A stretch of DNA of 37,970 nt from Saprospiraceae bacterium (GTDB lineage: Bacteria; Bacteroidota; Bacteroidia; Chitinophagales; Saprospiraceae). The stretch covers positions 1 through 37,970 of the forward strand of contig JALWKB010000195.1 of NCBI GenBank assembly GCA_026996805.1, in the 5' to 3' direction. The translations under genes and the position numbers were made by a program. How positions within the stretch are numbered: the first letter of the stretch is position 1; each line of letters starts with the position of its first letter. Under the pieces are notes generated by a model. That model made no database searches. It worked only from the letters and a program-made list of their open reading frames with translations, and was not told the origin of the DNA. Shown piece after piece: positions 21,101 to 26,944 of this stretch.

Positions 21101-22246
21101 TCATAGGCCCTCTAGCGCCTGTTGGAGGTCTTCGATGAGGTCGGTCACATCTTCGATGCCCACGCTCAGGCGGATAAGTGTATCGCGCAATCCGGCTTGA
21201 CGCCTTTGCTCGGGTGGGATCGACGCATGGGTCATCGCGGCCGGAATGCTGATCAGTGACTCCACGCCTCCGAGTGATTCAGCCAGTTGGAAGTAGCGGG
21301 TCTTTTGGCAGAGCTGTACCGCATCGTCAAGGCGGTCGCTGTTGAGCTCAAAGGAAAGCATCGCGCCAAAATCGCGCATTTGACGTTTGGCTAGGTCGTG
21401 TTGCGGGTGCGAGGTCAAGCCCGGATAGTAGACTTTTGCCACAGCGGGATGCGAATGTAAAAACTGGGCAATGGCCATGGCATTGGCACATGCACGCTCC
21501 ATGCGTACGTGTAAGGTTTTAATACCTCGTAAGACGAGAAAACAGTCTTGCGGTCCCGGTACGGCTCCAGTGGCATTTTGTATAAAATAGAGCCGTTCGG
21601 CTAACTGTGGATCCCGAGTGACGAGCAATCCAAGCACCACATCCGAATGGCCACCTAAGTACTTCGTTGCTGAGTGCAACACGAGGTCTGCACCTGCGGA
21701 AAGCGGCGTTTGAAGGTACGGCGAGCAAAAGGTATTGTCGACACATACCCGTATGCCCCGCCGATGAGCAATGGCACTGATGGCTTCGATGTCGACGAGG
21801 CGTAGCAGGGGATTGCTCGGCGTCTCGACATATACCCATCGCGTGGCATCTGTCAGGTGGTCTTCCAATGCTGCGGGGTTGGTCAGATCGACAAAGCGGC
21901 TTCGGATGCCAAACTGCGCGTAAATCTGTTGGAAAAGCCGCACGGTCCCGCCGTACAGATCATCGTTGGCGATAATTTCGTCGCCCGGACGGAGGAGCTT
22001 GACAAGGGCATCTAAAGCTGCTAAGCCACTGCTATATGCAATAGCGTAGTCACCACCTTCGAGGGCAGCTACATTGGCCTGTAAGACGCTGCGCGTCGGA
22101 TTTTGTGTGCGCGAGTATTCGTATCCCTTATGCTGGCCCGGGGCCTCTTGCACATAGGTCGACGTCTGATAAATTGGAGTCATGATGGCTCCCGTTCCGC
22201 TATCGGGTTCGATGCCGGCGTGAATGACCTTCGTTCCAAATTTCAT
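21101..22246 (-). CDS. Trans-sulfuration PLP enzyme (cystathionine gamma-synthase/beta-lyase type)
   Basis: PLP-lysine motif SATKYLGGHSDVVLG, DDLYGGTVRLF, and C-terminal SLGGVESLISIPAAMTHAS. The ORF extends to 22279; MKFGTKVIHAG at 22246 is the canonical start. Confidence 0.9.
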   Translation of the reverse strand: MKFGTKVIHAGIEPDSGTGAIMTPIYQTSTYVQEAPGQHKGYEYSRTQNPTRSVLQANVAALEGGDYAIAYSSGLAALDALVKLLRPGDEIIANDDLYGGTVRLFQQIYAQFGIRSRFVDLTNPAALEDHLTDATRWVYVETPSNPLLRLVDIEAISAIAHRRGIRVCVDNTFCSPYLQTPLSAGADLVLHSATKYLGGHSDVVLGLLVTRDPQLAERLYFIQNATGAVPGPQDCFLVLRGIKTLHVRMERACANAMAIAQFLHSHPAVAKVYYPGLTSHPQHDLAKRQMRDFGAMLSFELNSDRLDDAVQLCQKTRYFQLAESLGGVESLISIPAAMTHASIPPEQRRQAGLRDTLIRLSVGIEDVTDLIEDLQQALEGL

Positions 22247-22327
22247 ACACCAGGTTTTCAAGCCACCGAGTCGTGGCATTTGCGGTCAAGTGTGCCCACA
22301 AAGGTAGGGGATTGCGCTGATATGGAC

Positions 22328-25104: not shown

Positions 25105-26283
25105 ATGAAAGACAAGCACTCCCTACACTTTGAAAGTGCACAGGTACATAGCGGACAAAGGCGCGATGCTACTGGAAGTGTCGTAACGCCCATCTATCAG
25201 ACCTCGACATTTGCTTTCGAAAGAGCGGAAGACAGCGGTGATTGTTTTGCAGGCAAGGGCTATGTCTACACGCGATTGAGCAACCCGACGATAGAGGATC
25301 TGGAAGAGGCGATGGCCACTCTTGAACAGGGCACACATGCCTTGGCCACTTCTACGGGGATGAGCGCTTTAAATACGCTCTTTTTTACACTGTTAAAAAA
25401 AGGCGATCACGTCATCGTACAAAGAGGCATGTATGCACCCACGCTCCATTTGTTAGAGCGGTATCGCTCTCAATGGGGGCTTGTGATCGATTTGGTCGAT
25501 ATGTGCGACATCGAGGAGGTGAAGGCGCACCTGCGTTCCAACACGCGCTTGGTCGTGGTCGAAACCCCCTCCAATCCCATGTTGCAGCTCGTCGATTTGG
25601 AGGCAGTATGTGCAGTATGCCGTATGCACGGGGCGTATGTGGCGGTCGACAACACCTTTTGTAGCCCTTATTTACAACAGCCCATTCGATGGGGAGTCGA
25701 CTTTGTCGTACATTCGATGACTAAGTTTATCAATGGCCATTCCGATGTGGTGGCGGGGGTAGTCGTGTTGCGAGAGGATCGCTGGTATGAGGAGATGAAG
25801 AAGTCGCGCTCACTTTTGGGGAACAGTATGGATCCACATCAGGCTTTTTTGGTGCGACGCGGGCTGCGCACCCTCTCGCTGCGCGTCGAGCGGGCGCAGG
25901 AAAACGCCATGACTATAGCACGGTATCTCGACCAACATCCCAAAGTAGCACGTGTATGGTATCCGGGATTGCCGAGCCATCCGCAATACGCCCTTGCCAA
26001 AAAGCAAATGAAGGGTCCAGGAGCTATGGTGACGTTTGAGCTTAAAGGGGGCTACGACGCTGCCATACGCCTGTTGAACACGGTCAAGCTGGCCAGTCTG
26101 GCCGTCTCACTCGGAGGTGTCGAGACGCTGATCGAGCACCCATGGTCGATGACCCATCGCTTTATGTCGGAGGAAGAAAAGAAGTCGATGGGCCTGACTC
26201 CGGGCGTTATTCGCTATGCTGCGGGCATCGAACACGCGGAAGACTTGCAAGCAGATTTAGAGCAGGCGTTGGAAGGCCTATAA
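25105..26283 (+). CDS. Trans-sulfuration PLP enzyme (methionine gamma-lyase / cystathionine gamma-lyase-like)
   Basis: SMTKFINGHSDVVAG PLP-lysine motif, VVVETPSNPMLQLVD, SLGGVETLIEHPWSMTH. Confidence 0.88.
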   Translation: MKDKHSLHFESAQVHSGQRRDATGSVVTPIYQTSTFAFERAEDSGDCFAGKGYVYTRLSNPTIEDLEEAMATLEQGTHALATSTGMSALNTLFFTLLKKGDHVIVQRGMYAPTLHLLERYRSQWGLVIDLVDMCDIEEVKAHLRSNTRLVVVETPSNPMLQLVDLEAVCAVCRMHGAYVAVDNTFCSPYLQQPIRWGVDFVVHSMTKFINGHSDVVAGVVVLREDRWYEEMKKSRSLLGNSMDPHQAFLVRRGLRTLSLRVERAQENAMTIARYLDQHPKVARVWYPGLPSHPQYALAKKQMKGPGAMVTFELKGGYDAAIRLLNTVKLASLAVSLGGVETLIEHPWSMTHRFMSEEEKKSMGLTPGVIRYAAGIEHAEDLQADLEQALEGL

Positions 26284-26288
26284 AAAAG

Positions 26289-26316
26289 AAACCCCTCTTC
26301 GAGCGAAGAGGGGTTT
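26289..26316. terminator. Perfect 13-bp stem hairpin, likely bidirectional intrinsic terminator
   Basis: AAACCCCTCTTCG-AG-CGAAGAGGGGTTT, flanked by AAAAAAG on the left (a T6 tract for the minus strand) and TTTTGGG on the right. It lies between convergent CDSs ending at 26283 (+) and 26362 (-). Confidence 0.9.
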
Positions 26317-26361: not shown

Positions 26362-26862
26362 TTACTTTCCGCACTTACCGCCACCGCATTTACCGCCGCC
26401 ACATTTGCCACCACCACATTTACCGCCGCCGCACTTGTGCTTTTTGGCATCGTCTTTTGCCTTTTTGGCATCTTTTTTAGCGTCTTTGGCGGCTTTGTCT
26501 ACGGCTTTTTTGGTGGTGTCTTGCACGGCTTTTTTGGCATCCTTGGCCTCTTTTTTGGCCTTATCGGCGCCACATTTGCCGCCGCCGCATTTGCCGCCGC
26601 CGCATTTACCTTGACCGCACTTGCCTTTACCGCACTTTCCGTTGCCGCATTTTTTGGCCTTTTGGGCATTTTTGCCGTCGCCACACTTGGCGAAGTGTTG
26701 GATATCCGACTTGTTGAAATCCACTTTAGCGGTGGCTACGGTCAGGTCGCCGGTAGCTTTGCAAGTGGATGGGCACAGTCCTTTTATGCCCATTCCGATA
26801 CCGAAGAGGAGGACGAGTGCTGCTACCAATCCGAGATTCCAAAAGTTGTTCTTCTTTTCCAT
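26362..26862 (-). CDS. Small membrane-anchored cysteine-rich KCGxG-array protein (candidate metal-binding or HvfA-like RiPP precursor)
   Basis: ATG at 26862 (ORF track uses GTG at 26868): MEKKNNFWNLGLVAALVLLFGIGMGIKGLCPSTC... then two KCGxG arrays separated by an Ala/Lys/Asp-rich helix. 14 Cys in total. Confidence 0.88.
   Translation of the reverse strand: MEKKNNFWNLGLVAALVLLFGIGMGIKGLCPSTCKATGDLTVATAKVDFNKSDIQHFAKCGDGKNAQKAKKCGNGKCGKGKCGQGKCGGGKCGGGKCGADKAKKEAKDAKKAVQDTTKKAVDKAAKDAKKDAKKAKDDAKKHKCGGGKCGGGKCGGGKCGGGKCGK
26365..26433 (-). repeat. C-terminal (CGGGK)n coding repeat, five Cys at exact 5-residue spacing
   Basis: CGGGKCGGGKCGGGKCGGGKCGK directly before the stop codon. Confidence 0.95.
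26569..26649 (-). repeat. Internal CGxGK coding repeat, six Cys at exact 5-residue spacing
   Basis: CGNGKCGKGKCGQGKCGGGKCGGGKCG. Confidence 0.95.
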
Positions 26863-26944
26863 ATGCACAAATTTTGAGATGAAGAGATTACTTGTAAATA
26901 GCCAACGTTGCTGCGATGGGTTGTATTGTAGATATGGTTAAACT

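Follow-up and report, generated by a model that had tools for sequence, protein, structure and literature searches.

The closest described systems are the captophorin RiPPs, comprising HvfA/oxazolin, fontiphorin and Buf_EGKCG (models NF050137 and NF050188), which are exported and in which a KCG motif recurs at a five-residue period. In the HvfA/oxazolin class, cysteines are converted to 5-thiooxazoles, a change of -4 Da per Cys, by an MNIO enzyme (DUF692) with a DUF2063 partner, and default annotation names KCG arrays modified RiPP metallophores. In a published survey, 67 of 2583 Buf_EGKCG genomes lacked MNIO genes, and a fusion type joining EGKCG repeats to EF-hands has also been described (PMC12452194). 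The window analysed here, a 37,970-nt stretch of a Saprospiraceae contig, encodes a protein that shares the KCG period of these RiPPs and, judging from its hydrophobic N-terminal segment, may be exported as well. It differs in that its genome carries neither DUF692 nor DUF2063, that Gly, Asn, Lys or Gln rather than Glu or Asp stands three residues before Cys, that it does not pass the domain model passed by related Saprospiraceae arrays, and that arrays in this system are also fused to the efflux adaptor CusB. The protein is best read as belonging to a known motif class, in a variant that does without MNIO.

Features of the array gene in the window (residues numbered from the ATG)
Feature	Coordinates	Strand	Details
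KCG-array protein gene	26362..26862	-	166 aa + stop, from in-frame ATG at 26862 (MEKKNNFW...)
Hydrophobic N-terminal anchor or signal (predicted from hydropathy)	26776..26829	-	residues 12-29; no clear lipobox
CPSTC	26761..26775	-	residues 30-34, immediately past the hydrophobic segment
Array 1	26569..26652	-	residues 71-98; six KCG, period 5
Lys/Ala/Asp linker	26437..26568	-	residues 99-142; predicted helix, pLDDT about 50-65
Array 2	26365..26436	-	residues 143-166; five KCG, period 5
Terminator-like hairpin with T run (consensus scan only)	26289..26316	-	downstream of the array gene and of the convergent PLP-enzyme gene

An alternative GTG start at 26868 (26362..26868, minus strand) would lengthen the product by two residues; the sister-species ortholog, starting from its own ATG, aligns across all 166 residues. 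An earlier note on this DNA had described a protein of about 166 residues with a hydrophobic anchor, CPSTC, and six plus five cysteines at a period of five, and this anatomy holds, with the earlier residue numbers running two ahead of those used here. The 14 cysteines lie at positions 30, 34, 60, 72, 77, 82, 87, 92, 97, 144, 149, 154, 159 and 164, Cys60 being isolated outside CPSTC and both arrays. The five-residue recurrence of KCG is exact; no shuffle out of 100,000 reached the longest period-5 cysteine run of six, and 31 reached five. At the N-terminus, the best 19-mer (residues 12-30) has a mean hydropathy of 2.19, and the AlphaFold model places a weak helix at residues 7-21. Overall, that model is of low confidence (mean pLDDT 43.5), with a weak helix in the linker as its only other element and no four-helix bundle. 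A Pfam search of the protein brought no family near its cut-off, including DUF2282 bufferin, bacterial metallothionein and Csp, and an Rfam scan around the gene gave no match. The protein thus shares with metallothioneins and with the exported copper storage protein Csp1 (PMC7558416) its many cysteines and the proposed unmodified thiolate binding, but differs from them in its regular period-5 arrays, its putative membrane anchor, and the lack of both a Pfam match and a predicted bundle.

Another MAG of the genus (L004, Saprospiraceae S141_43) encodes an ortholog that is 95% identical and keeps all 14 cysteines, so the five-residue period persists between species. The two genes differ by 34 synonymous and 8 non-synonymous codons (dN 0.033, dS 0.479). 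Array 1 accounts for 9 of the synonymous differences and 2 of the non-synonymous ones (a Q/G swap), array 2 for 6 and none. Repeat units within the window arrays also differ in synonymous codons, from which the earlier note had argued for selection on the protein rather than slippage. Because synonymous changes dominate and every cysteine is kept, the KCG array is under purifying selection and is not a fresh slippage product. The N-terminal 73 residues have no homologs beyond the genus, remaining matches having E>0.02, and the standalone window-type protein with this N-terminus occurs in two genomes of one genus. The array gene lies 82 nt from its upstream neighbour, and the sister species keeps the surrounding genes for a VanY carboxypeptidase, MoeA, a Cys/Met PLP enzyme and a TonB-dependent receptor; no recognised metal-resistance or RiPP gene is present among the neighbours. 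Two Cys/Met-metabolism PLP enzymes (PF01053; window 21101-22279, minus strand, and 25105-26283, plus strand) flank the TonB-dependent receptor-like gene, the second converging on the array gene.

Searching the genome with the window protein revealed a second KCG array on another contig (C57), where it forms the C-terminus of a 496-aa CusB adaptor that also contains HMBD and CusB barrel-sandwich domains. The adaptor gene follows those for an RND pump and an outer-membrane factor (order CusA-OMF-CusB); the window gene itself lies outside this operon. The best solved relative of the pump is E. coli CusA, and Met is aligned at all three positions of the established CusA triad. With a CusA-like pump bearing this triad, an outer-membrane factor and an HMBD adaptor, the operon is of the Cus type for Cu(I)/Ag(I) efflux. 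The adaptor tail holds 11 KCG in this genome and 7 in the sister species, and its repeat number therefore evolves. Upstream of cusA lies an ORF of 170 aa, rich in Cys and His (G000:C57; L048:4306-4818); it has no Pfam match and may be a further metal-binding component of the operon.

In other Saprospiraceae, CusB terminates in some 140-190 aa that include DUF3347 (Pfam match shown for two), on whose function no literature was found, and a CPMA...YFGxxM motif occurs in the C-terminal region in 26/26 non-array genomes. Among the CusB loci returned as best matches, KCG-tailed adaptors were found in six of the seven array genomes and in none of the 26 others (Fisher p=6e-6), or, counted by genus, in 3/4 versus 0/26 (p about 0.001, our own count). 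The fusion thus co-occurs with standalone arrays. The DUF3347 region is missing, with KCG repeats in its position, in the window's genome (G000) and in G071, G043, G144, G079 (two copies) and G168; in the seventh array genome, G027, CusB keeps DUF3347. The adaptor-core tree does not settle whether the tail has a single or a double origin. DUF3347-bearing CusB (L109-L135) often end in YFGxxM[ML]KCG, and the repeats of KCG-tailed CusB of other genera begin with MKCG; judging by these termini, the tail might have grown from such an end. A comparable arrangement is known from SilB (PMC4446572): this Cus-type adaptor carries at its C-terminus a CusF-like metallochaperone domain, which is also found as a separate protein. 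By analogy, the KCG array would likewise be a metal-binding module occurring both alone and at an adaptor C-terminus, although CusF is a folded beta-barrel and the array is a low-complexity cysteine repeat without a Pfam match.

The reading that we favour, and consider reasonably probable, is that of an exported, unmodified polythiol scavenger of Cu(I)/Ag(I) working with the KCG-tailed Cus pump. Binding by plain cysteines is probable because the genome lacks the modifying enzymes and carries the same repeat as a fusion to its copper pump. The unmodified thiol sponge, which the earlier note had offered as its second choice, is thereby favoured on sequence grounds and gains a likely partner in the CusB of the same genome. 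It is unlikely, but deserves some weight, that the unmodified thiols instead form a scaffold that binds Zn/Cd or takes part in redox buffering and disulfide exchange, with no functional link to Cus. Many soft metals are bound by cysteine arrays, the CPSTC that follows the anchor might be redox active, and a thioredoxin-like protein adjoins the arrays of L057 and L059; however, this reading is opposed by the same array being borne by the CusB of a Cu/Ag pump of the CusA type and tracking it across genera.

The earlier note had preferred an HvfA/bufferin-like RiPP. In the window's genome (95.1% complete), DUF692 (MNIO, PF05114) was absent even at E<=10, and DUF2063 (PF09836) was absent as well. 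Arrays with the three-copy pattern KCGxGKCGxGKCG occur in 7/199 Saprospiraceae genomes, few in number, from four genera and all draft MAGs. None of the seven (94-100% complete) has DUF692 or DUF2063, lax thresholds yielding at best <=16 bits for DUF692 against a 25-bit cut-off, and nothing in G000. DUF692 exceeds its cut-off in 36/199 Saprospiraceae genomes, and within this family alone the anti-association between arrays and MNIO is not significant (0/7 vs 36/192, p=0.35); the contrast is drawn against other Bacteroidota. In a 398-genome sample of the phylum, eight genomes outside Saprospiraceae carried KCGEGKCG, and all eight carried DUF692, in seven within about 1 kb, indicating that the search recovers RiPP organisation where present. 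Counted by genus, DUF692 accompanies arrays in 0/4 Saprospiraceae and 6/6 other Bacteroidota. In the DUF692-adjacent loci that were read, the next genes resemble those for DUF2063 and DoxX proteins, as judged by size and appearance rather than by profile. At phylum level, the looser two-copy pattern KCGxGKCG hit mostly one family (f18), at single KCG[V/L/I]GKCG sites, which were put aside as a presumably unrelated motif. The window protein itself scored 6.9 bits against the HvfA model NF050137 (cut-off 19.5) and 6.7 against NF038108, the model of the Cys-every-fifth RiPP CefA (cut-off 30), and gave no listed match to NF050188.

The residue three positions before Cys points in the same direction. 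It is acidic (Glu/Asp) at 41/41 xxKCG sites of seven array proteins from DUF692-bearing genomes; 14 of these sites read EGKCG, a number biased by genome selection, and the remaining 27 are acidic as well. The proportion is roughly two thirds in other Saprospiraceae standalone arrays from genomes without DUF692, 9/39 in CusB tails, and 0/12 in the window protein, where Gly, Asn, Lys and Gln occur, as the earlier note had observed. The relaxed position thus agrees, at the level of sequence, with the missing MNIO enzyme. The motif alone is no proof of non-modification, since FonBC fully accepts DGKCG and the described set contained no Gly, Asn, Lys or Gln version (PMC13097082). We regard as quite improbable an HvfA/oxazolin-type RiPP whose DUF692 and DUF2063 enzymes either escaped assembly or have diverged beyond recognition. 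In its favour are the shared KCG period with an export-like N-terminal segment, the other Saprospiraceae arrays that pass NF050137, and DoxX-like genes beside some of them, as in hvf loci. It is opposed by the lack of both enzymes in all seven array genomes, the non-acidic position, the failed HvfA model, and the occurrence of the array on a large exported adaptor. Absence of DUF692 together with loss of the array in orthologs had been named as what would overturn the RiPP reading; the first was found, but the array is conserved in the ortholog.

Array proteins of other architectures occur in Saprospiraceae without DUF692, including lipoprotein-like proteins with a long helical repeat and a terminal KCG run (L052, L055, L058), EF-hand proteins with arrays on their flanks (L053, L054, L056), and plain EGKCG proteins (L051, L057, L059). 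An apparent kinship of the window linker with the helical lipoproteins probably reflects shared composition: E is about 1e-7 uncorrected but 0.02 once composition is corrected for. Seven of these proteins (L051, L053, L054, L056, L057, L058 and L059) pass NF050137, a model whose family name implies oxazolone/thioamide modification, and in their DUF692-free genomes this naming is probably an over-annotation. DoxX-like genes adjoin the arrays of L051, L053 and L056 (Pfam tested for L051), suggesting that these arrays descend from hvf-like loci that lost their enzymes. A thioredoxin-like protein precedes the EGKCG array gene in both genomes of genus g44 (L057:329-1324 and L059:4666-5658; 64% identical). 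A pair encoding a GMC oxidoreductase and a gluconate-dehydrogenase subunit-3-like protein adjoins array genes at L051:1031-3969 (G027) and L054:3657-5985 (G168), in two genera without DUF692, the two proteins being 67% and 34% identical between loci. Modification by some other, non-MNIO enzyme such as this pair is very improbable, for its adjacency to arrays in two genera is set against its presence at two loci only, its absence near the window gene and near the CusB gene of the same genome, and the chance that it is an unrelated redox system. If true, it would provide a second route to Cys-derived metallophores, reaching the tail of an efflux adaptor.

For the favoured copper/silver scavenger, we infer a topology in which the array protein would be exported and anchored to the inner membrane, its Lys- and Cys-rich portion facing the periplasm. 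The unmodified cysteines of its two arrays, joined by the helical linker and presumably kept reduced, would coordinate Cu(I)/Ag(I) through their thiolate groups, letting the protein capture or buffer metal at the membrane. The CusB tail would present the same ligand at the pump in place of DUF3347 and hand metal to CusA for export. Thiols left free in the periplasm may become oxidised, and the position of the window gene away from the cus operon, among neighbours with no recognised metal function, counts against the link.

The label 'oxazolone/thioamide-modified' is unsafe for array proteins of genomes in which neither MNIO nor DUF2063 is detected. Neither CusB nor efflux comes up in the body of the MNIO landscape paper, in a search of mostly open literature. 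A group of genomes keeps KCG arrays with no MNIO or DUF2063 detected and bears them on CusB at the DUF3347 site, which shows a modular swap of C-terminal modules, DUF3347 against KCG, on the Cus adaptor. With this system, the bare array with a cysteine at every fifth residue becomes directly testable as a working copper ligand.
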